This document shows positions 1 to 49,053 of a DNA stretch of 64,000 nt, in pieces. Under the pieces are notes generated by a model, which made no database searches, was not told where the DNA came from, and worked only from the letters and a program-made list of their open reading frames with translations. The stretch's first letter is position 1. The number at the start of each line of letters is the position of its first letter. Origin of the DNA: Clavelina lepadiformis (Eukaryota; Chordata; Ascidiacea; Aplousobranchia; Clavelinidae); assembly GCF_947623445.1 (NCBI RefSeq), contig NC_135241.1, positions 3,226,501 through 3,290,500 on the forward strand, given 5' to 3'. A program made the position numbers and the translations under genes.

Positions 1-1368
1 TTTTCAAGGTCTTTCTTTTAACCAAAATTTTGTAGCGTAAGTGCCGAGTCATGTCGTTTACTATGTGACAGTGCACCTCTGCGGCGAACCCTAGCGCACG
101 CAAACTATGTGGTTACTTCGTAATTTCACATAGTCGACGCTGACACGTCTCGGGCGCGAGTTTAACAGCAGCAAATTGTGCTTTGTTTCTAATTTTGCGA
201 TTGTTAGTTTCGCGCTGAACTTTTAACAGATTGTGAACTGTCGGTATTTCTGGAAAGCCAATCACCAGTAGAATTAAATTATTCCGCGATCACTTAAAGG
301 GTATGTACGGTGTGGGGTCAACCAATTGTTCCCCTTTTGCGTACGGTATGTCCAGAACTTTCATCGACGTTGTGACGTATTCAAATCTAACGAGTTTAAA
401 AACTTTCAATCCATTGTTTTATCCAAAGTAATTGCATGCTGTGCGATTATGCTCTGAAGGCGGTTGAACATAGAGTCATAGACGGACGAAGTCACAGATA
501 CCTTTTGCGATTCTGCATTAAAACGAACTACAGGTAGTTTTATTATAGATTTCATTACCGGTCATATCCACATACAGTGATCTCTATACGATGGTTTAGC
601 GCAACAAGTGACCTTTTTAATAGCAGGTCTCTGTAAAACGCAATCACTACAACCCAAACCCTTTGACCTCAGTTCAAATCTAGCTTCCATTCTAAATTTA
701 ATTGCATTTGATTTGAACTTTCTGCACGAGAGGTTTCCAAATTCAACTGCTTATGGATTCCAGTACCTTACGTGACGTCGTTTCGCGAAAATGTCAGTTG
801 TAATTACTAGCTTACATTACATCCAACGATTCCATTTGCGCGGCTTATAAACAAAGAATATATACACGAAGGTTTACTGTCAAGGCAATAGCGAATATTT
901 TGGTCAACAAACTAATTCTTAACACGCATAAAGATTTTGAACGGCCATACAACGGATAATGGTGGTTGATGGCCGAGTTGCATCACACACGGACTCAGTT
1001 TAACCAACGTACCTTTAAACTTTTAAGCCGGGCATCTATTATGGTCTGCATTTGTTTGCTTGATGTAAGTATGCTACCGGCGGCAATACGCAGACTTCGG
1101 TCAAATATCTTCCCAATTTCGCTCAAGTCCTAAAAATGGGACATAAATAACTTGTAAGCGGGAATATGACAGCTCTCCATGCTAAAATGCAAATATTAAG
1201 TCTACTCTATAGAATTAACGCACCGTAAAATTCAAATAAACATCAACCACACATTTAACGCTTTTTATAACAACTGGGAGGAGGGCATTGCCAGTTAAGC
1301 ATTCAACGCCGCATTTTATCTTGCTCAGCGTTTACGCATGATGGAACGGATCGGTGTTGGTGGCGTAA
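1..1368. other. Left flank without a recognised gene
   Basis: This stretch lies beyond the NAA25 stop codon and would hold its 3' UTR. I see no convincing coding exon, RNA gene or terminal-repeat element in it. Short open frames are present but show no family resemblance. Confidence 0.5.
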
Positions 1369-4300
1369 TTACTTTACCTTTCCACAAATTTCTTCATCAC
1401 TTTTTAAGACTTCAATGTTTTCATTATTGGTTGACACAGGATTGGATGAATGTTCATTGGATGTGGACGAGTTTTCATCTTTTACATCACAACAAATTTC
1501 ATTGTTCTGCTGGTTGCTCTGATTCGCAGCATCAGTGATGTTTAATTTGTTTTCAAGTGTTTCGTCCAATTCTGCTACTGAATCTTCATCATCTTCTTCG
1601 CTAAGTTTACAGCTGTCTCTCATGATCTTGACGTCATTTTGCAACCTCTTCATAGCAGATGTGAACTGCGCTCCGATTTCTTTCATTCCTTCAACACTCG
1701 CTTGGTAATCGTTGATGAAAGATGGCTGCTCAAAAATTTTTTGAAATTAGCAGAAGTGTCGGCCCGGAAAAATTTTCCTTTAATGTTAAAAAATGTTTCT
1801 TTATACATAAAGCAAAGATGTTACTTAAATAAAAAACTTCGAGCTTATACCAACTGTACTGGGGTTTGTTTTCCTTTCTTTTTTCGTTTTTTCCTCTGCA
1901 AATCGGACTTAACGGCCAGGACGTACGGCTGCATGCACACCAGTGACAACACGGATAAGCTAAACATCTCCATACAAAGTACGAGCCTGGATTCAATAGA
2001 AATGTTAGCAATGAAATAAGGGGTTTAGTGCAGCAATTATAAGTTTCAATTCACAAGCGACCAGATGCCACATGACACTAAAAAGTGAAATTAAATGCTT
2101 TTTAAATTAGGGCAGACGTGGCAATTTTATGGACGTAAACCATACCTTTCAATTACACCTGTCTTCACCCTTAACAGGTTTTCTGGTATAGGCTCTGTAA
2201 GCATGGAACCATCATTTATAGGGGCTTTAAAATCCTGCTTGCATTCTGCAAGAATGCCATGGCAGCAAGTCCCCAAAAATTCTGCACAAAATAACTGATG
2301 TCAAACTCAAATGATTGCTAAGTCTTTGAATTCCATTGGTAATAGAATAGCACAATTTGGTAAAGACCAGTATACTTATGGACTTACAATACCTTTAATA
2401 TTGTCATAGACATTCTTTATCTTGTCTGAAAGCTCATCCAGTTGTTGCATGTTATCTTCAGACGCACTTGACAGGCCTTGACAATACCTGAGATGCAGTC
2501 AACAACAGTCATGCAACGTGCCATAAGAAACAGGTTACGTCAAGGTTACAAACCTGAATAACGAGACCATAGTTTGTGGGTATTTAGCTTCAAAACAGAG
2601 ATGTAATTTTGTTGGATGAGGGCCATGGTATGGATACTGTGGAGGTGGTGAAAGTTCTTCGCTGCAGAACTTTTCAAGCTCTTCAACATAATCATCATCT
2701 ACTTTTCCGTTTGAATCTAAAAAAAGAGGATAAATGCTATAAACTTTGACACCCCACTCTTTCAGGATAATGTATCTATATGGGTACAGCAGCGTCATTT
2801 GGTGGCAGTTTTTTGCAACTAAATATTGTTTGACAGAAGAGATCAAGAGTATGATCACAGTCTACCATCAAGCTAACATCAACCCAACGTTATTCAATTA
2901 TTGAAATTGTCATAAGCAAAATACACTCGCAATCCTTCACTGGATTCTAAACCTTTCATTTTATTTCAATCCTTGATTTCTCTAAAACCCGTGGTTTGAG
3001 AAACAGTAGATAAGGAAGGCACAAGGCTTGCACTAATTTACAAATTCTTAGATGCACCAAAGAATTACAGACCACACATGATATCTTGTCAATATCAAGT
3101 CAATATCTTGAAACTTTGGAGACCAGACATACCAATATCACGAGAGTGGCCATTTTGTTGGGAAGTTTTGCTGCGAGCTCCATAAAGAATTGACTGAACA
3201 CTGCGAAGTAAAAGCTCACGGAAGCATAGCCACCTTTTGTCTTCAATGAAGCTTTTGTCAATTAATTCATCGCATAATCGCCTACAACAACAAAACCATA
3301 ATATTGATTATTATAATTGTAAATAACAAATTTTGGTCATGCGTTGATTAAATGGTGAAAAGAAAAATGCAAAAAATGTTAGTAATGTGAAATAATATGA
3401 ATAAATAATAAATAAGAATAATAAATAATATAATCTAATAATACGTAATCTGAAATAAAACTTACTTCTTAACTGGGTTGATGTCGGAAATGACTGAAAA
3501 ATCTCGATTGTCTGTTAGAAATTCAAATTCGATCCTGTCGGGATCAACGTTTTCGTGCAAACTGTCCAAGGCTTGATCACTGTAAAATCAGTTAAAATGT
3601 CTTGCAAAGTTTTTTAATCATGAAATGAGGTTTACACGTAACTGTCTACATCGATTTGTTCATACATGTCACATTCTGTATATAAATCCATGAGTACGTG
3701 TTCGGTTCTTATGTAAGCAGCATGTAGGGAGTTGCCGACTCTTCTCCTGTAACTTACAAGCTCAGATATCTGCGATAAAATAGAATTATCAGAGTTGGAC
3801 AAGTGATTACGGTCTGAATTCAATCTCAATCAATATTTTCTACCTTAGTTTTTATTTCACGATTGAATTGACTAATTCGTAATGAATAAGAAACGTACTT
3901 GAACAATAACAAACACAGCAAAGCCAAGATACGGATATATATATATATTATATATATATATATATATACAGGTATATATATATATATCATATACTTATAT
4001 TTAGCATAAGCACATATGTTACATTCTGTTTATAGCCATCTTAAGAAAGTGTTGCTTATGGTATTAAACTAACCAACATTTGAAGCTACACTATACCTTA
4101 TGAAAGGTCCCATTGCGAAAGCATGTAATAAGGCATTCCACAGAATCTTTGTTGTTTGTGACATAGAAGCTACGAGCGACTTGGAAGACTTGGGATGCGA
4201 GATGAAAGTGGCCAAGATTTCCGACTTGCTCACATATTAAGTAACTGAGAAAGGAAATTATGACAAACTCAAAGAAATTTTAGACGTAAAGTTACCTTTA

Positions 4301-7300
4301 ATTATTTTTCTGAAATTCACAACAACTACCCCAGTGTGTCATGTTGGATGTGTTTCAGTTCCAGTGAGTCATAGATTGAGGCGCACGGTGTGAAAAGGCC
4401 TAGCCTGCAGTAGGTTCTGATTAATAAGAGTTTCATTTCATAGTTATGTGGGCTATTTGTCAGCCCATACTCCAGTAAACCCACACATCTCCACAACCAC
4501 ATCGCGTCATCTGCGAGAAAGTCTTATTGTTGGTTTTTACTGCTGAGATTTCTATGATTTTGAAAAATCGAGTAGGATTTTTAATAATCTTAACCTGTAT
4601 CTGTGAAGATATCAATCAATAACCAAACCACGGAAACACAGTACGCATCAACAACTATTCCGTCTGTGAGAGGTCTGTCAGCACCTGGGTATGCAAAACA
4701 AACCATTACATGCAAAACTACAGCTATTAGTTTATTACTATATTTATAAATGAAACTGAAGCTTCGAATCCTACATAAATAACAAGATATAAACGACCTT
4801 TATAGGCCAGCAGTGGTTTTTAAAAATATAGCAGTTTAAAGAACTCAAAACTATACACAAACAATTGGTACAACATAATTTTAATCTAGTTTAATCCGGA
4901 ATTAAGGTGATCATAATTTCTCCATAGAATCCTAATATAACGAATAAACTGTTGAACTGACTGTAGCAGAGCCCCTTTTCATAACGTTCCATATAACCTT
5001 CGGCAAGTTTAATTTTTTCTTCAAGAGATAATAACTCGTGCTTGCCCAAGTACCTTCAAAAAACAAGAACATCGAGCAATCCAGTTTTATGTGAAATTTT
5101 TATATTTTGTATACAGATAAGTTCGCAAAGATACATAACAAAAGCTGTTAGTATTAACATGGTAACGTAATAATTGAGTTACAGTTTATGATCATATGCA
5201 AGCAACAATAAATCTAACTGAAGGAATAAAGACAGAGAAAGTTTAACCATACCGTGCTACTTGAACTATAAAAATATGTCGTTGTATTTCTTTTTCTTTT
5301 CCGCGATTAATTTCAGGGGTCGTAAGTTCACTCAAGTCGCTCTGCACATCACTTTCCATCAATTCATCCAGTTGATCTGACAACTCCTTAATAAACTGTA
5401 AAAAATACAAGTACAGTACCTAAAAGTTTATACATATACACTATTGGCTTTAAAAGTATTTGTGAGAAAAACAGTTAATGTGCATTGTGCGATGCTAAAT
5501 CTTCAACTTGCCCAATAGTCCCTACTCTCAAATATTGCATTACACACACACTGACTACAGAAGTATTAAGTAAGATACACCCTTTTAAGTATGTGTAAGA
5601 TATGGTTATAAAGTATGATATCTATGTGCATGTAGTAGCCTTACTCCTCCATGCCTTCAACACATTTGCTGCCATTACAGTTATGTGCTATGGAGTACAA
5701 GGCCATGCCTGGTAAGCCTGCTACAGTAGAAGGTTGCAATGGGTATCTCAACCATGTTACAACACACACCTCATCAACATCTTCCTGTGACAGCAGTGAG
5801 AGATACACCTTGACATCATGAAAGCAACAAGGCTTCGATGAAAAGTCTTGCGCATATTGCAGTAGAATCTTTCTTGGCGTTCCCAGTTGTTCTGTCTCAT
5901 CTAGTATGAGAACCAAGAAAAGCTTTTGCATACGAAGCATCAAATACAAAAACCACAGTAGAGAATCTATACACTTTATTTAAACAATGGAAATAAAAGA
6001 TGAACAACAAGTGTCACATTGTTAGTAGCAAGAACCTTGATTCTGTAGATTCATCTTCAACCTTAAAAGCATTTCTAACTTCAATAAATATGGTCCACGG
6101 CTTCTATTCCATTCATATTGGTTTTCTCTTTCCACTAGCCCATTAATGAAGGTGAATACTTGGTCCAGAGTATAATCAGGCTGGGGAATCAACCTATAAT
6201 TCATATAAAGAAATTCCGCTTGTTTTGAAAACAAATTCACATCACGAGTCAAGGCACTGTGTTAAATGATAAAATTACTTAATGTATGTATTTAAGCAAC
6301 AACAAAAAAATTTATAACTGAATGATCAATAAGAAAAGCTTGTAACTGACTTGTTAAGAATGCTGTTCTCTTCTTGTGCAGGTGGATTTTCATAAAGCTT
6401 GAAAAATGAGTTGAGATATCCCAATGCATAATTCCAAACATCTGGTCTGCAGGAGACAGTAAACAGTAAGAGCTGATATGTAAGTTTTTAGTTTGAAACC
6501 ATAAAAGTTTGATGAAACAAAACCTCTCGTTTAGAAGGCGTTTATATTCTGCATTCACTCTGTCCCAACGATTGGCCTTTTCCTCGGCAGCCAAAACAGC
6601 AAACGCAAGGCCTTTAAGTTCCGATGTAAGCTTTTCTGCACACATTAGTTTCGAAATAAGCTGTTTATTTTTAAAGAATGTACTTAACTACAGCTTATTA
6701 CACAAGCTAACTATCAAGCACTTACTTCCAAGATCTCCCTTTAACACAGCGAGAACTTTTTCATGTTTTTCAAGTAGATTGAGGATAAGAAGATAAAGAC
6801 GAACCTCTGAGGTATTAAACAAAAAAGCACTTATTCTAAAGCACTTGTGCAAGCAATCTGTGCATAGGCATGTAATGCAACAAGCATTTAAAAGATAAGC
6901 AGGAGCTAGTAACATCTACGAGTCTGTCTATCTAGCGAATGAATTTCAATCACTAAAACATACAATTATATGATTTTGGGAATTATTTTAGGACGTTTTT
7001 TTAATGTTGGTATACTTTTCAACATCTACGACAGTTCAAACCTGCTTCTGCTTCGAGCTTTCCTTTCTCAATGTGTTTTTCGATCATCTTCTCTGCTAGT
7101 GGCAAATACATTGTTTCTGAAAGTTTTTGGTTCGAAGTGCTTTTGGCCTGTTATCAGGTTGAACATTGTTAGTGCAAACCTTAATCAAAATGCAGTGCAC
7201 TAAACTACCAGCATATACAGTACTAGAATTAGAAAAAAATGTATTCAATGCCCTCTTCACCTGCAAAACAATTGCCATAATAGCCCAAAACAGGTACGGA

Positions 7301-40500: not shown

Positions 40501-43500
40501 TGTGTATTAAATCTTGGCAAATGAAACAATGTGCAGAGCAAAAGAAAGTGGTAATATACTGTACCATTTGTTGAACAAACTCAACACACTGATTTGCATG
40601 CATGTTTGCATATACATTGAAAACTTTTTCAAATCTTTTGTTTTCCTAAAAATATAAAATGATAGTCATTTCTCTTTAGTATAAAATAACATATCATAGA
40701 CCAGTTGATTAAAAAAGATATAAGATGTTTATAAAAAATTAACTTTAAAGCAAAAACTACGGTAGCCTGTAAAGGCCACAACAATTATAATTTGGGTTCC
40801 GCAAAATATTTATGATCACCACAAAAGTATTTCACGTTAGCGCAAAATATTTATGATCACCACAAAATATATATTTTTCTCAGCAAAATATTTTAGAAAT
40901 TCACAATATATATTTTGTCTCCCTCTAAAATTATTTTGTGCTTTCAAATTATTTTGTGCCTTGAAAAAATATTGCGACTTCGAAATATTTTGCGAAGTCG
41001 AAATATATTTCGCTGTGAAACTTCCACTACCGCAACAAATATAAATTCGCCGCACAATATTTTAGAATCGCCGCACAATATTTTAGAATCGCCGCACAAT
41101 ATTTTAGAATCTCATCGCAACATTTCAAAATGTGTGCTTACCGTATGGTAGGCGTAGTTGATGAGGTCTTCGGGAAAGGAATAAGGTTACCGGTCACAGC
41201 CACAAATAGTGAGAGATAGTAAGCTTTTGCAAGCCTTAACAAGCTTAGGTCTAGGCTACATTGTAAGGTCTTTTGCAAGTTCAGTATGCTAACAAACTTG
41301 TAAAGAAAATGTTGAAGGCTTTTGTCTTGATTACTATTAGGTATATAGGCCAAAGCTGGGTGGAACATTATAAAAAGTTACCTGGAACCAATGTTCCCTC
41401 TAATTTTTCACGAGTCTGAGCAAACACACTAACTCCCTGAGCGGTCCCTTGGACCACTGTGAGCAACATCAGACGAGCCAAGTGCGCACTGTCGCTACTG
41501 TGGCCATTATTAGGCGTTTATTTTATTTTTAATTCAAGTTGGATTATTTTCTTGTGCGCAGCACAGATTTTCTGTGCGCGGAGACCGTGTCAGCAGTGCG
41601 CATTTGCGCACGCGCGCAGCTTAGAGGGAACATTGCCTGGAACAGGACCAAACGCTATAGACACGTTTCAACCAAAAGTTAAAAATATTGTAGCCTTCCC
41701 AAATTAATAAGGGTGTAGTATACAACCTTGCAGTTGACGACATAGTTTGAGTAGTTGGGTTTCATTTTACAAAGGCATCATGTGGCTGTGCACATATATA
41801 CTAAACCCACATAATATATGATTGTCACTTTTTTTAAGTGCAGTTGTGTAATTTCTGTCACCAATTCTCCAAAATAGCTGTGTGCTCAGCTTCCCTTTCC
41901 CAGCTTCTTATAACTCTTCGACACGATTGAGTATTTTTATCAAGTTTTTTGAACATGTTTTGTTAAATATTCTTGCAAATGTGACATCAGCAAACATCCT
42001 TAAAATAGCAGTGGGCTATACTGGGGTGATTTTGACTTTTTTCAAGTAACACAACAGAACTGGAGTTTAAAAGGTGCCTATGGACATACCTAGGAACGTG
42101 CAAAAAAATTTTTTTGATTTTGTTCAAATTCCGGATGGAGCCCGGACTTTATATGAAAAATTCAAGATGGCCGCCATACAAATTGACGAATCTGCAATAA
42201 ATTTACTTCCAGTCAAGCTTTTGGGCTGATTTTGGTGTCAAAAGAAGAAGAAAATTGAGCCTGTTACTTTAAAACAGCAACAAAAAGCCCAGTATGCTTG
42301 AAAGTTCCCTAAAACATTGAAACTATTATATTTTGGTCATTATTTTTCATAGTTTTTTCATTTTTGTTGGTGCAACTTGAGATTACTGGTCGCATCCAAG
42401 AATAATGATGACAATTTCAACACTATATACAAATAACTTGTTACCGGTATATGAAATTCACATAAAAGTGTCATGAAATACACCAGAGATTTGAGAAACA
42501 TTTATACACTTTAGTAACGACACAATGGTCGTCACACCTTGGAACACCCATTCAGTCTCTACTGTGACAGGGGCGATTTGAACAGGAATAACATCCTGAA
42601 TGTCATCTCTTTTTGGTCTCCTCCACATGGTATTGTTGTTATCGTTAACCCGCTGGTATTGGTCACATTGTACAGTGCCATCATTGTTTAAATGGCAGAC
42701 CCTTGCCAAAAACTACTGACGTTGATTGTTTTCTCCGTCCCACACCACAGCCACATTCGTTCCTATAGGGTATTCTTCATGGAGTTCAGGAATTGCTGCC
42801 GCAATACACATTTTCACTGGTTGATCTGTGTCACCAGAGGAAGCTGCAGCAGCAGAGGTTAAGATGGCATATACCTCATCTTCTGTTGGGAAGATGGTCC
42901 CAACATCCTCATCCTCAGTTCCAAGAATCACAGCTAGGTTCACCAGCATGGTATCTACATTCAAGCTGTTTACTTTGTAGAGGCTAGGATTTGCCTGGCT
43001 GTCGTGTGGATGAATCATCCCTTGGTACTGGATCTCCATGCGGACGATTTTTCAGCGTGGATGATGATGCTGTTGGCAGAGCTCGGAGCTCTTCTACTTT
43101 TGTAATTGGGCCCCCATGTCCCTTACATTGATCCACCAGGTGGTTATATCCTTAGTTATAAAACAGGATTGTACTTGCGTATAATTTGTAGCCAGTATAA
43201 GCTATTTAGTCCAGTGGTTATGAAATTGGAGTGCACGTAAGGTTCTTAAGGTGGCACGAAAAATTCTCTTTGAGCTATGACGACGACAGCTGGATTTTTT
43301 TCACTGGATGGTTTCGCTACTGGGTTGATTATTTCACAACCAAGTTCAATTGCTGTCGGTTGGCAATGGTTTGTTTTCCAAATTGCAGTCCAATGATGAA
43401 AGTTACACGCACATAACTTGTTATTTTGTTTTATTTTGCAATAGGATAGAGACACAAGTTTTTTGGCACCATTTCTAAGAGTTTAAGAACCCCTAATTTC

Positions 43501-46500
43501 GTATTTTTGACTTAAACTATTTAAAGATGACCTAAATATGAAGAACTATGTTAACTTTCCACGTTATTTCACAAATACTATTATTGCTATCATGCATGTT
43601 TTAAGCTCTCAAAGTTTGACACTTTTTCCTGCTCATTAAATGTTAGTGACCATTGTGTTTTATTGTGCTATAACTGTAATAGTTAGCATCGTAACTATGG
43701 CACAGCACAACTATTGGCGAAAAATAAACAATGCAATTGTAGCGATAAGTCCAGCTGCTACACAGCAGTAATTACAATGATACATCACAATAATTATGAT
43801 GAAGTAGATGTTTGTTTGTGTATTTAGTGACGTTACCCGTTTGTTCATTATTTAACTATAGTTACACTATAATCGTCAGTTTACTTATATAAAAAAGTGC
43901 TCATAGTCAGTTTCACTTGTTGACAAATTGTCAGATTCCAGTACATTAGAATATTTAATGATCTGCACAATGTATTGCACAAACTGTGGAATAGTACTCT
44001 CTTCAACACATTTATTTTGCGGCTTTTGTGGGCAAGGTAAGTTCAGTTTAATCTTAAATACATTATACCATGTGACAGGTCTATGCAATACATGGAATAA
44101 GTATAAAGTTTTTTGTAACATATTACTTATGATAAACAGAATTATTGATTGATTGGATGATTCAATTAAACTGTAAGCTGTGAATCATATTACCATAAAA
44201 AGGTTTCTGAACGCATGTGTGATTGTCACTATTAAAGTAAAAGATGCCAGTCAAATTGGCTCGTTCAGATAATTGGAAACTAAGGGTATAATTGCAACCA
44301 AAATTTTCCTTAGCCAGGAATCTTCCCGCCTTAACGGCTAGTCACTCAGCCGGTTTTGCCTTGTTAGCGTTTAATGGCATTTTTTTTCATAAAAACATCC
44401 ACCTTACTCTAAAACCAAAACGTAACTACCGACAACCGTCGCCCAGCCGAGCACAGCACTACACCAAACAAATTCCACGCGATAAAGGAATCAACGTGGA
44501 ACGTAAAACACGATACTAATTAGGCCTTTGGGGTAACTACGTCAGACGTCACAAGAAATTTGATTTGAAAAATGTTGCTGTGCATGTTTCTGGTTTTTGT
44601 TTCAGTTATGGCTTTTTTTAGAGAAACCTCATTCCAGTATTGAGACACAGAACTTCTGTGATGAGACTAGTTCAAAGGAAAACGGAAGTAACTGCCATGA
44701 CAACTTGATGGACAACAAATCAAATGGTTTGAAAGTTTAAAGTTATTTAATTGTGTGTAATTATTTTACATTAGATTTCTAATTGGGTATAAGTTGATAG
44801 CGAAATCGGGTGGAAGTTACAGACAGTCTATAGTGCAGTGGTTCCCAAACTTCATCTACTCGCGTACCATTTTTTTGGTTTATGCAGCGTTCTTGTACCA
44901 CCTACATTGCAGGACTATAAAATTAAAAACTGACTTCAAGGATTTATTACCTAGTAATAAATGACGTTATATTTCGTCACAAAGAAACGCTTGTTTCACG
45001 ATCCAATGTGTCAATACCCTAAGGAATTAGTATTCAGTAGGGAATAAAGCATTAAATTTGCTCATACTCTACCTAATTTATGTGAATTAAAATATTGCCG
45101 ACCATAATAAAAGATCATTTGCGATCCGTTTGGTGTAAACTTGATAAGTTGCTGGCGTACCACAAGTGGTATGTGTACCATAGTTTGGGAACCACTGCTA
45201 TAGTGGTATTGTAACGATTTGTTAGAGGTTAAAAGCACTTCATCTTCAAGAAAATGTAGCCCTTTACATATGTTTTGTTACAGTGCTTACCAGTGCAAGT
45301 TTTTTTCTTTTTTGCAGTTTTGTCTATTTCTATTTGAAATAACTTACATATGCAGCATCTTTTTGGGACAATGAGAAATTACAGCATTACAAAGGAATCC
45401 ATTGCTTTTTGAACCTCTTTTTATCACATCGTCTGAGCGTGCTGTTGATGCAAATTATGTTGCAAGTCTGTTAATTCCCAATCACTCTGATGAAAATTCC
45501 TCGAAAAGAATTGTGGAAGAAAAAATAATGGATAACTTTGTGGATTTTTTAATGCATTTAGAGGACAATAAGGTAAATGTAACTGGACATGAAATCTTGG
45601 CTAACGACGAGAATGATTGTCATTTAATTTCATGTACTCCTCCTGACTTGACACCTGCAGGTGTGTTGGGTTGGCTAACAGGCCAGAAACACAGGCCTAT
45701 ATTTGGGAACGACCTTCAAATTTCGGTGCAGTTCGATCACAACTGTTTGGAAAATAATCCAAAACACAGTATTTGCTACCCTGTAGTTGGAGCATGCGGC
45801 AGGGTTGTTACACTACCAGCAAAGCACATGGAGAAAGAAAACGATTTTAGGTCTATCTTTTTAACGGCAATATGTAATGCTCAAGCATTTGGACTGCATT
45901 AAAATTTTATATTTTACATTAGTTTAGTTGTTGAACCTATTTCACTTGCCTTCAATGTGTAATGACCACTGTTTAATGTTTATAAACAAAGCTTGCCAAA
46001 CTGAGTTTTTCCTGAAATTAGTAATTTTTTTGTGTGTTTAGCAGTATTTATGTTGCATGCTTGTTGTGGTACAGTAGATATATTTCTGTGAGATTTTCAG
46101 TATTCTTTTCAAGTGTAATGTTTCTGTGAGCTACAGTTGTATTTCTTCAAGTGTATCTGCTAAAATTTCGATACATAGTTTTTCAGTGTAATAGAATCGT
46201 GCTTATGATGAATGCAATACAAAAGTAATACAAAACACGACATTTATGTTGATAGACTTAAAATGATAGGCAATAAACTTTACATTACTTGCTCACACAG
46301 AAATAAATAGTTCCGTTTATCGGTCTCTGGCTACATTCATAAGCATTTTATACAGATCTAAGGCTTCAGTGCAACAAGATGGCACTCCTTGTCCAAGTTC
46401 AGATGTAGCATAATCAAAATATTCTTGATAGTCTTCAGTTTCAGTTGGTTGTGATATTTCAGCCAATACCAAACTAATGTTGTGTGGTGCAACGTTTTTT

Positions 46501-49053
46501 AATAAGCCAGAAATTCCTCCATATCTTTCTGGCATGGAATATAGTAAATCTGGCCGTCCTGCAATTACATTATGTCGAGATTTTCTTATTCGGTGAGTAT
46601 TCCAGTGGTCCTTGAAAAAATCTAAGTCATTTTGAATTAAACATGAAAAGCAATACCACAAGCATTCTTTGCTGAGTGTTTGGGAGAAATCCACAATACC
46701 TCGAAACTCAAGGTCACTAAAAAAGTTGCGCCACCAACAGGCACGAAACCTGGAGAATATTGACCACCAGCTTTCTATCCGCTGATTTCGGGGTGATGGT
46801 ACATAATGATGCGAGTTAATGTTATCTCGAAAAAAGCACTGCGCTGCTGCCAACAATCCATTTTCTGTACCCAAATCTGATACTACTTCAATCGGACAGC
46901 CTTGGAAGTGAGTGACAGCTTTAATATACATATTAGCGACAACATGTGGACATTTGTTTGATCGTGTAACATTAAGCCACAGCACTTTTCGACTAAATCC
47001 ATCAATTGCACCATGTATAGAAAATCCGAATGGTTTCAGCTTGTCGTAACCATCTGTGTGCCATGCATAATTTGGCCCAGGGTTGTGATACTCTCTTCGC
47101 CTTAAACGGTGAGCTCTTCGAGCCTCACACCCTTTCGGATCAATATTACGTAGTACATCAGCTACATACAACCTTGGTACTCTTAAACCTTCCATTTGTA
47201 ATGTGTGCCAAACTGACCGATATCCACCAAAAGAAGAGGGTCCATCTAACAACTCCTCGATACGTTTTTCTGCCTGAAATAAAACGGTGATGTCTTTTTT
47301 CCAGCCACATTTTCTTCGCAGTCCAATTTTGTGCAATCGTCTCTTTAAAGTTCTCATACTGATTGCGTAGTTATGACGACTGTGTAGCAATTGTAAAATT
47401 TCTCCATACTCATATCCTGAATGGAAATATTCAGATATTATTTGATCTTGATCCAAAGTAGTAGCTGCAAAACATAAAAACAACATGTGGACTTTTGAGA
47501 CATGACTTGGCACGTTGTATGATATATTTTTTACTAAATAATAATTCGTTATTAATAATAATACACAGACACACAGTCGATTTAGGTAAAACATTTCTTG
47601 TTGGTGTAAAAAAGAAAACAAAAAATATGTTAGTCTACAGCCAAATTTTCATTAAAATATTTATATCTTCACTTGAAAGGTACGCTACTCACCGTGACCA
47701 CAGTGTGAACATATCACAAAAATGTCAGGTATTTCATTATGGCACTCAACACAATTCATTGCAATGAAGATCAGTTTTCACACTAAGAAGGTACACTTCA
47801 TTTTATAAAACAAATTTCTGAAAAAGTCAGTTAAAATTTATGCTGTTATGAACAGCTTTGGTCTTCGAGACAAAAAAAACAACATAGCCTATAGCCCTAC
47901 ACCTTACATTCGGTAGGCCTAACCTATACAGCCAAGCCCTAGAAAGTTTGTTGGCATACTGAACTTGCAAAAGACCTTACAATGTTTAACGTGTAGCCTA
48001 CACCTAAGCTTGTTAAGGCTTGCAAAAGCTTACTATCTCTCACTATTTGTGGCTGTGACCGGTAACCTTATTCCTTTCCCGAAGACCTCATCAACTACGC
48101 CTACCATACGGTAAGCACACATTTTCAAATGTTGCGATGAGATTCTAAAATATTGTGCGGCGATTCTAAAATATTGTGCGGCGAATTTATATTTGTTGCG
48201 GTAGTGGAAGTTCCACAGCGAAATATATTTCGACCTCGCAAAATATTTCGAAGTCGCAATATTTTTTCAAGGCACAAAATAATTTCAACGCACAAAATAA
48301 TTTTAGAGGGAGACAAAATATATATTGTGAATTTCTAAAATATTTTGCTGAGAAAAATATATATTTTGTGGTGATCATAAATATTTTGCGCTAACGTGAA
48401 ATATTTTTGTGGTGATCATAAATATTTTGCGGAACCCAAATTATAATTGTTGTGGCCTTTACAGGCTACCGTAAAAAACAACATAGTAACAAGTAATAAC
48501 CAGACATTCAAGCAGTTTGAACATGGCATTCAGTACTGTGTGGTATATAATATATTGATCCAGTATAAAAGTGCACAACCAGATGACGTCACAAATTGAG
48601 TAGCTGGGGTTTAGTATGCGAAGGCCTCCTGTGGTTGTGTAGTTGTATACTAGATCCTAATATATTAAATAAACTATTGTCAACAATTCAAAATATAAAT
48701 TATGTTGCTTACATGTGAGAAATCTCTATATCCAGGCCTATCACAATCGTTTTGGTATTTAAAAAGATCATCAGGATTACTCTGTGCTGTTTCTACTGCA
48801 GATGCCTGAAAATTAAGCAGCTTCACTAAAATGAACCTTCATAACAGAAGCAAATTTAACCTTTTAAAAGGTTATTTAAAGAAATATACCTTAGAAGTTA
48901 TAAGAATTAAGCGACATGGTTAAATTGCAGAATATGTGATAAACGCTATACAATGCTAAAACACAACTGAGCCAACAATCTTTAACTTTAATTATATAAG
49001 ATGAGGGAAAAGTGAATTACAGTGTAACATAAAACTTAATCACTTACTGCCAT
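37576..49053 (-). CDS. MIOX: Myo-inositol oxygenase, 9 exons
   Basis: MIOX opens the myo-inositol ring with O2 to D-glucuronate, the first committed step of inositol catabolism, in the cytosol at a mixed-valent di-iron centre. Exons 49053-49048, 48805-48713, 40645-40565, 40481-40389, 39856-39787, 39423-39246, 38853-38786, 38708-38546 and 37684-37576 join in frame to 286 aa (human 285). All six iron ligands are present: H99 in NSFHAFQTAE, H124 and D125 in HDLGK, H195 in MSWGHDE, H221 in YHSFYPWHTG and D254 in HDLYTK, each one residue later than in human. Exon 1 codes only Met-Ala, and its donor GTAAGTG follows directly. Intron 2 is about 8 kb because the 7.7-kb IS3EU-like transposon and a palindromic MITE have entered it; the remaining introns are roughly 90 to 860 bp. 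Confidence 0.96.
40758..41298. repeat. Left terminal inverted repeat of the IS3EU-like element
   Basis: It matches the reverse complement of 47944-48473 almost base for base. Internally it is repetitive: GCAAAATATTTATGATCACC occurs twice, and a 21-bp unit beginning CGCCGCACAATATTTTAG occurs three times (two on the right side). Such subrepeats are candidate transposase-binding sites. Confidence 0.92.
41389..41635. mobile_element. hAT-type MITE nested in the IS3EU-like element
   Basis: Ends CAATGTTCCCTCTAA and its exact inverse TTAGAGGGAACATTG are flanked by a perfect 8-bp duplication cctggaac (41381-41388 and 41636-41643). It lies just inside the left inverted repeat, so it is younger than the host transposon. 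Confidence 0.92.
41711..41808. mobile_element. Palindromic MITE, copy 3 (CRE lost), nested
   Basis: The left end GGGTGTAGTATACAACC pairs with the right end TATATATACTAAACCC. The block ACAAAGGCATCATGTGGCTG identifies the family. The central TGACGTCA of the other three copies is changed here to gacgacat. Confidence 0.75.
42458..43060 (-). pseudogene. Broken third gene of the IS3EU-like element, SH3/Tudor-like barrel
   Basis: Two abutting frames in the same register (43039-42713 and on to 42458) are separated by a stop. The upstream part reads LNVDTMLVNLAVILG and PIGTNVAVVWDGE; the downstream part reads FLARVCHLNNDGTVQCDQ and MWRRPKRDDIQDVIPVQI. The pattern of alternating hydrophobic strands with W-D-G-E and R-P-x2-D-D-I-Q resembles a small beta-barrel such as a Tudor or chromo-barrel domain, but this is only a fold guess. 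A further conserved-looking piece (GHGGPITKVEELRALPTAS) lies upstream in a different frame, so at least a frame change and a stop separate it from a working gene. It has the same orientation as the transposase. Confidence 0.5.
43958..45902 (+). CDS. Zinc-ribbon protein with HECT C-lobe, encoded by the transposon, 3 exons
   Basis: Exons 43958-44036, 44622-44726 and 45385-45902 join in frame to about 233 aa. Starting instead at 43970 would drop four residues. Exon 1 encodes C-x2-C...C-x2-C (CTNC and CGFC), a zinc ribbon. After an acidic/Asn-rich linker, the last ~140 residues match a HECT ubiquitin-ligase C-lobe. GVLGWLTGQKHRPI corresponds to the F-V-T-G-x-S-R-x-P strand, HSICYPVV carries the candidate catalytic cysteine (about C192), LPAKHM matches L-P-x-Y, and AICNAQAFGLH gives the AI-x4-GFG-type end. 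The HECT N-lobe, which binds the E2, is absent from this model. It is convergent with the transposase, whose first exon encodes the same ribbon. A hAT MITE lies in intron 2. The protein's role in transposition is unknown. Confidence 0.72.
44836..45197. mobile_element. hAT-type MITE in the HECT gene's intron, 362 bp
   Basis: Ends CAGTGGTTCCCAAACT and its exact inverse AGTTTGGGAACCACTG are flanked by a perfect 8-bp duplication ctatagtg (44828-44835 and 45198-45205). CGTACCA motifs sit at both subterminal regions. It lies wholly within intron 2, so the coding frame is spared. Confidence 0.95.
46317..47759 (-). CDS. IS3-like DDE transposase with N-terminal zinc ribbon, 2 exons
   Basis: Exons 47759-47693 and 47464-46317 join in frame to 404 aa. 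Residues 1-22 carry C-x2-C...C-x2-C (CVEC, CSHC). About 25-75 form a helix-turn-helix-like region ending MRTLKRRLHKIG. About 88-130 (SSFGGYRSVWHTLQMEG) match the HTH_21-type segment preceding IS3 integrase cores (Y-G-Y-R-x-I-x3-L). The catalytic core has D160 in WHTDGY, D219 in SDLGTENG and E253 in QRIESWW, with 33 residues between the last two. Reading straight through the intron would give a false N-terminus of about 50 hydrophobic residues; the acceptor TTTTGCAG and the homologous first exon of the HECT gene argue for splicing. The reading frame looks intact. Among eukaryotes such cores occur in IS3EU-type transposons and domesticated relatives. Confidence 0.85.
47944..48473. repeat. Right terminal inverted repeat of the IS3EU-like element
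   Basis: Reverse complement of the left repeat at 40758-41298, with two rather than three copies of the 21-bp CGCCGCACAATATTTTAG unit, scattered single changes and one short indel. The transposase start codon lies 185 bases inside its inner edge, so the repeat may supply the promoter. Confidence 0.92.
48557..48657. mobile_element. Palindromic CRE-bearing MITE, copy 4, in MIOX intron 2
   Basis: The left arm GATCCAGTATAAAAGTGCAC pairs with the right arm GTTGTATACTAGATCC. TGACGTCA lies at 48594-48601. A perfect 9-bp direct repeat taatatatt (48548-48556 and 48658-48666) flanks it, the clearest target duplication among the four copies. Confidence 0.85.

Follow-up and report, generated by a model that had tools for sequence, protein, structure and literature searches.

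A predicted IS3EU-type transposon family with a HECT-like second gene in the ascidian Clavelina lepadiformis

Introduction

Transposons of the IS3EU/GingerRoot type have been described as having TA...TA ends, a target-site duplication (TSD) which is usually 6 bp long, a DDE transposase related to those of IS3 and IS481, and no HHCC zinc finger (PMC10045372). In rust fungi, IS3EU elements have TAYGG..CCRTA ends and 6-bp TSDs and carry a second gene which is opposite in orientation to the transposase (PMC12730594). A connection to ubiquitin is known from Ginger1, whose transposases may contain OTU or Ulp1 protease domains, and a role of this pathway in transposition was suggested there (PMC2836005).

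Here we describe an element from the genome of Clavelina lepadiformis which shares its ends, its TSD, its type of transposase and the absence of an HHCC finger with IS3EU/GingerRoot, and which differs in having a HECT-like gene: neither HECT nor ubiquitin occurs in the text of that description (PMC10045372). As in the fungal IS3EU elements bearing TET, the second gene lies opposite the transposase in both of the families that we report, which have TACGG or TATGG ends; the accessory proteins of the fungal elements are a TET/JBP dioxygenase and an alpha-kinase, in fungal hosts, and HECT does not occur in the text of that paper (PMC12730594). Like Ginger1, the element is a DDE transposon with a putative ubiquitin-pathway enzyme. 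In Ginger1 the enzyme forms the C-terminal part of the transposase and takes ubiquitin or SUMO off, whereas here a separate HECT-like protein would attach ubiquitin (PMC2836005).

HECT domains have been reported in a giant-virus protein (PMC6027436) and in immune proteins (PMC8195603), neither being a HECT in a DNA transposon as far as the consulted parts go. The consulted parts of two further papers contain no word beginning with "transpos" (on animal HECT genes, PMC2837046) and no HECT in a DNA transposon (PMC5560861). In the literature that we searched, openly accessible text without the entries of Repbase and most subscription papers, HECT and IS3EU did not occur together in any paper, and no HECT in DNA transposons was found.

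Results

Structure of the element

The window is the whole stretch of DNA that was analysed (64,000 nt), and feature positions refer to it. Read directly from the sequence, the element is 7,716 bp long (40758-48473, Table 1), with the termini TAC...GTA (TACGGTAGCC...GGCTACCGTA). These boundaries and termini, the 6-bp duplication AAAAAC and terminal arms of about 530-540 bp had been proposed in a first-pass annotation and were confirmed, the arms being 542 and 530 nt long and differing by 8 mismatches over 521 aligned positions plus one 21-nt and one 9-nt indel.

Table 1 Features of the element and its flanks, with positions in the window.
Feature	Position	Strand	Remarks
Target-site duplication AAAAAC, left copy	40752..40757	.	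Identical to 48474-48479
Left terminal inverted repeat, 542 nt, starts TACGGTAGCC	40758..41299	+	513/521 aligned positions identical to right arm
247-bp insert within element	41389..41635	.	hAT-type by 8-bp duplication CCTGGAAC, inverted ends CAATGTTCCCTCTAA
Frame fragment with in-frame stop	42458..43051	-	Inside older nested insertion, outside core element; 5 copies
Predicted HECT exon 1, zinc ribbon CxxC-x10-CxxC-G	43970..44036	+	67 nt from second ATG; donor GTAAGT
Predicted HECT exon 2, 105 nt	44622..44726	+	Unusual donor GTTTGA; placed by comparison with sister-copy gene models
362-bp insert in HECT intron	44836..45197	.	hAT-type by 8-bp duplication CTATAGTG, ends CAGTGGTTCCCAAAC
Junction of 1,482-bp deletion	45380..45383	+	Identical in window copy, L040 and L041
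Remnant of HECT exon 3	45383..45902	+	C-lobe, Cys codon 45795-45797, stop codon
Transposase exon 2	46317..47464	-	Exon limits predicted; Pfam rva_4 E 1.7e-30
Putative catalytic triad	D 47052-47054, D 46875-46877, E 46773-46775	-	Assigned by motif
Transposase exon 1, 67 nt, zinc ribbon CxxC-x10-CxxC-G	47693..47759	-	Predicted; phase-1 donor GTGAGT
Right terminal inverted repeat, 530 nt, end GGCTACCGTA	47944..48473	-	Arm comparison
Target-site duplication AAAAAC, right copy	48474..48479	.	Matches left copy

Twelve loci were compared for the two hAT-type inserts. The 247-bp insert was found in the window copy only, an exact 21-nt string being missing in the 11 others, and the 362-bp insert was found in six (the window copy and L040-L044), which suggests that it was carried along with the element. 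The frame at 42458-43051 had no Pfam match; it was found in the window copy, L040, L041, L043 and L044, corresponds to positions 1464-2120 of the L043 element and is missing in L045-L048. As it belongs to a nested insertion, it was rejected as a third gene of the element.

The transposase is encoded in a single frame of 443 codons from stop to stop, as uninterrupted as the first-pass annotation had it, and is 404 aa long once a predicted 228-nt intron is removed. The residues of the putative DDE triad are separated by 58 and 33 residues. The second gene is tail-to-tail with the transposase gene and has its first ATG at 43958. In both genes the first exon is 67 nt long and encodes a zinc ribbon; the cysteines are equally spaced in the two, and both donors are in phase 1 (counting the HECT exon from its second ATG). 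The ribbons match Pfam Zn_Ribbon_1 at E 7.4e-5 for the transposase (22.8 bits vs a cut-off of 25) and E 0.001 for the HECT gene, also under the curated cut-off. The two exons are identical at 30 of 67 nt, which was reached by 240 of 20,000 codon shuffles, so that their likeness is only suggestive.

The window copy had been described as nearly intact, which was not upheld: its second gene has lost 1,482 bp (positions 4795-6276 of the L043 element), including the exon-3 acceptor and most of the protein with its N-lobe. The open frame which is left has 175 codons (45375-45899), nearly all on the C-lobe side. In the same place L042, L043 and L044 have an open frame of 592 codons, which together with two short upstream exons gives a predicted protein of 649 aa (splice sites predicted).

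Copies across the genome

Other copies with the same ends, for which the first-pass annotation had proposed a genome-wide search, proved to be numerous. In the 209,060,895 bases (95 contigs) of the genome, we found 54 occurrences of a 20-nt pattern taken from the end, allowing up to two mismatches, and none of its reversed control. The transposase query gave 59 matches, including six complete open 443-codon frames with 99-100% identity, one of them the window's own. We examined 20 copies (the window copy and 19 further loci), leaving out other end pairs such as C3:7905409-7909171, C4:2674254-2677095, C5:9413113-9417123 and C5:14167434-14171318. The full-length form is 9.3-9.4 kb long, nested inserts included.

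Both ends were seen in 18 of the 20 copies, and only one end in L046 and L050. Perfect 6-bp duplications flank 11 of the 18, every one different; those of the ten copies other than the window's are CTTACA, TATATG, CCATCG, TAATAG, GCTTTC, CAACCA, CATTTA, GGTTTT, TCTACT and CGCTTT. No perfect duplication was seen in the other seven (L044 and the short copies L051-L056). L040 is inserted in the right arm of L046, and joining its flanks restores this arm with a single CTTACA.

The window copy, L040 and L041 lie at three sites with three duplications and diverge by 0.20-0.29% (15-22 substitutions over about 7.4 kb), which supports recent activity of the family. A recent move had been proposed before on the grounds that the arms are about 1-2% apart. 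In cut-and-paste transposition the arms travel with the element and are not renewed in the way that LTRs are, so the similarity of the arms cannot date the insertion. The right arms of the window copy and L040 differ at 1 of 540 positions and the two arms within the window copy at 8 of 521, and dating by arm similarity was rejected on this comparison; recent movement stands by the divergence between copies.

Some copies have peculiarities of their own. L042 has a doubled left end (positions 108-223), with two TACGGTAGCC starts 115 bp apart, and a hAT-like transposase gene, assigned by eye, is apparently inserted in L048 (positions 961-3986). The short copies L051-L056 (C1:1.46 Mb and 3.24-3.65 Mb) are 2.3-2.6 kb long and have a common left flank, the reverse complement of which forms the right flank of L055 and L056; they look as if they had spread by segmental, partly inverted duplication. 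In viral contigs, protein scans gave four pattern matches for the transposase and six for the HECT remnant, none of which was confirmed, and 12 loci with a WLTGQ pattern (L001-L012) were rejected as chance matches by their frames and by tblastn (best E 0.021). A DDE-motif pattern had no match in viral contigs or in genome contigs.

Loss and conservation of the HECT-like gene

It had also been proposed to look for both genes in each copy, and here the outcome was mixed. HECT sequence is present in 13 of the 20 copies, the window's and others, whereas the whole predicted gene is found in three (L042, L043 and L044). A lack of HECT in all other copies, which would have counted against the first-pass interpretation, was therefore not observed. 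In the other 10 of the 13 it is broken or truncated; a second deletion is common to L045, L046 and L047, and the frame of L048, with 521 codons left, lacks the end of the C-lobe. Genome searches found no HECT sequence in L057 and L051-L056 (7/20). The deletion junction of the window copy is identical in L040 and L041 and their duplications are different, which suggests that the deletion arose once and that the deleted form then moved. The presence of this form at three sites, the seven copies without HECT sequence and the TSDs which several broken-HECT copies have of their own all indicate that the gene is dispensable in cis.

We compared the number of changes in the coding sequences and in other internal DNA, which includes introns and nested inserts, counting aligned positions with a local identity of at least 0.8; as all of these comparisons share the reference L043, they are not independent. 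Between L042 and L043 there were 14 changes in 1950 positions of HECT coding sequence, 4/1215 in transposase coding sequence, 74/4093 in other internal DNA and 26/997 in the arms, and the HECT rate was lower than that of other internal DNA (Fisher: p = 7.6e-4). It was also lower in L048, despite its cut gene (12/1692 vs 63/3907, p = 0.007). The differences were non-significant for L044 (2/1950 vs 18/5150, p = 0.13) and for the remnant in the window (3/704 vs 30/4486, p = 0.61), and two copies with the second deletion showed no reduction (L045: 17/876 vs 59/3392, p = 0.67; L047: 15/865 vs 62/3381, p = 1.0). For the HECT coding sequences of L042 and L043, dN was 0.0043 and dS 0.0137, from 11 changed codons (6 nonsynonymous and 5 synonymous).

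A second, divergent family with the same pair of genes

A search of the whole genome with the HECT model placed HECT segments beside divergent rva_4 transposons at C5:9570186, C5:9577468 and C2:9144509, the second being a tandem duplicate of the first. The frames at C5:9570120-9570416 and C2:9144482-9144706 scored 35.7 and 29.7 bits for Pfam HECT (C-lobe), and the transposase frame beside the latter scored 70 bits for rva_4. In this second family transposase and HECT C-lobe are again tail-to-tail, both over the Pfam cut-off, and pieces of the transposase are about 26-50% identical to the window transposase where they align. The C2 element (C2:9143216-9147031, positions 1217-5032 of L068) has the ends TATGGAACGCC...GGCGTTCCATA (TATGG...CCATA), the duplication TGATCG and arms of about 1.3-1.4 kb. 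Relatives lie at C5:15688500 and at C5:9565500-9581500, the latter being a tandem duplication in which two HECT/rva_4 pairs are spaced by 7,282 bp.

HECT adjoins three of the six divergent rva_4 places, two of the three being tandem duplicates. C5:15691232 is a transposase remnant with no HECT, and the whole-genome search with the HECT model gave no match at C5:15705164 and C1:2153590. That search also gave similar matches at C1:2.87, 3.13 and 3.46 Mb and at C6:19.4 Mb. A HECT gene at C1:3034000-3039500 was considered as a possible transposon gene and set aside, as the three inverted repeats there (35, 23 and 22 nt) do not flank it; no rva_4 was listed at this place in the genome search.

By these sequence matches, the pairing of transposase and HECT recurs. 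The first-pass annotation had regarded the combination of a transposase with a ubiquitin-pathway protein as undescribed; it is borne out as a recurring feature, in 13 of 20 copies and in the second family, and is not new as such, being known from Ginger1 (PMC2836005). What we could not find described, in the literature and parts of papers covered here, is a HECT-type partner which would attach ubiquitin.

These data bear on whether the HECT gene is only a passenger, captured by the element, playing no role in transposition and slowly decaying. Outside the elements, at least three relatives of the HECT-like protein were listed in the genome (C1:3.52 Mb, C4:21.79 Mb and C4:24.87 Mb), and all are decayed, whereas the family retains three whole predicted genes with fewer changes than the non-coding DNA (p = 7.6e-4 for L042-L043), and the divergent transposase lineage has HECT in the same place and orientation. 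We therefore think a passenger unlikely, although it would agree with the seven copies without HECT sequence, with the damage in 10 of 13 HECT-bearing copies and with the separate TSDs of several broken-HECT copies. The relic at C4:21789000-21793000 (L060) is about 67% identical to the element C-lobe and has other element pieces present, with no transposase match.

Relationship of the second protein to HECT ligases

A spliced second gene ending in a HECT C-lobe had been proposed for the window element. A HECT-type second gene is supported by the full-length sister copies, with matches under the Pfam cut-off, and by the second family; the C-lobe remnant in the window, searched alone, matched no Pfam HECT model, and its PDB hits up to E 10 did not include a HECT. 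The assignment thus depends on the full-length copies and the second family and not on the window remnant. The 592-codon frames match Pfam HECT at 17.1-19.1 bits (E 0.0012-0.0045, cut-off 23.9) over profile positions 35-83 of 306, and match UBE3A at E 0.0035, both hits being in the N-lobe part. The element protein would share with UBE3A-type HECT E3 ligases this weak N-lobe match and a C-terminal lobe with a Cys, and differs from them in being very divergent, in its N-terminal zinc ribbon and in being encoded by a mobile element. In a profile comparison, the reference consisted of HECT segments from the host (three) and C-lobes from the second family (two), and the element side of one effective sequence. 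The best alignment paired the C-lobes and matched their Cys residues, and was non-significant (E 0.059, HH-suite probability 0.9 of 100). Single-sequence structure predictions had a mean pLDDT of 33.0 for the HECT remnant and 33.5 for the transposase core.

The strongest support for HECT is indirect, and comes from the HECT segments beside divergent rva_4 transposons elsewhere in the genome. Given sub-threshold Pfam and PDB matches, an unmatched C-lobe, a non-significant profile comparison and a structure model of such low pLDDT, the second protein might be an unrelated transposon protein which resembles HECT at two motifs by chance. We consider this quite unlikely, because the N-lobe and C-lobe resemblances are in the right order and the second family has a HECT C-lobe which exceeds the Pfam cut-off at the equivalent place.

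Superfamily of the transposase

Besides rva_4, the transposase matches the NCBIfam models for IS481 (E 3.2e-6, 26.9 bits) and IS3 (E 7.2e-6, 25.5 bits), weakly in view of equivalog cut-offs at 224 and 160 bits. It also matches a phage transposase family (E 1.3e-8). The IS481 and IS3 matches extend over the stretch before the DDE core, consistent with the IS3-type pre-core segment of the first-pass annotation, which had suggested such a profile search. The N-terminus has a CxxC-x10-CxxC ribbon, which is different from the HHCC zinc finger of integrases, and no integrase HHCC zinc-finger model was hit in Pfam at E values up to 1.

The element fits the published descriptions of IS3EU in its ends, duplication and type of transposase, and is set beside IS3EU by these. 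The window copy and its sisters have TACGG...CCGTA ends, with the left end of L044 (AACGG) as the exception, and the second family has TATGG...CCATA, in agreement with TA...TA and with the TAYGG..CCRTA of rust fungi. The 6-bp TSD was perfect in 11 of the 18 copies with both ends and, in the second family, in the one copy with both ends; the DDE transposase is related to IS3/IS481 and the HHCC zinc finger is absent. The H2C2 zinc finger and TGTNR ends of Ginger1 and Ginger2 were not found in the window element. Membership of another integrase-type superfamily (Ginger, Polinton or LTR-derived), to which a weak rve match below the cut-off (E 2.4e-4) might point, is very improbable given the IS481/IS3 matches, the lack of an integrase zinc-finger model up to E 1 and TA...TA ends where Ginger1/2 have TGTNR (PMC2836005).

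Discussion

The copy in the window probably belongs to an IS3EU-type cut-and-paste transposon whose full-length form additionally encodes a HECT-like accessory protein; it has an internal deletion, and its transposase gene is intact. At the level of the sequence, the copies display the ends, the 6-bp duplications, complete transposase frames and a second gene in whole and broken states, and forms without the whole gene have evidently moved. The transposase would pair the two long arms, cut at the TA ends and insert the element into a target that is cut with a stagger of 6 bp. The HECT-like protein would act as an accessory which puts ubiquitin on the transposase or on host factors for repair or silencing, and so would aid the spread or persistence of the element. 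The accessory gene is lost from the window copy, in which the transposase remains, and full-length copies may supply the accessory in trans.

We tentatively propose, as a possibility which we hold with less than even confidence, that the second gene of the IS3EU-type transposons in this genome is old and conserved and encodes a HECT-type ligase owned by the transposon, acting in transposition or against silencing or repair; as part of the same proposal, the ligase would write ubiquitin and thus be a counterpart to the proteases for ubiquitin and SUMO in other transposons. The zinc-ribbon exons of the two genes agree in cysteine spacing and intron phase, and the ligase may therefore be directed to the DNA or complex to which the transposase also goes.

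These results suggest that some transposons bring their own ubiquitin-ligase-like enzyme. Ubiquitin-removing enzymes in transposons are already known; if the proposal is true, mobile DNA would also bring its own means of marking proteins, for example for destruction. Closely similar copies with and without the whole HECT gene in one genome make the role of the accessory directly testable, and multi-copy HECT-like genes in animal genomes may be explained as transposon genes.
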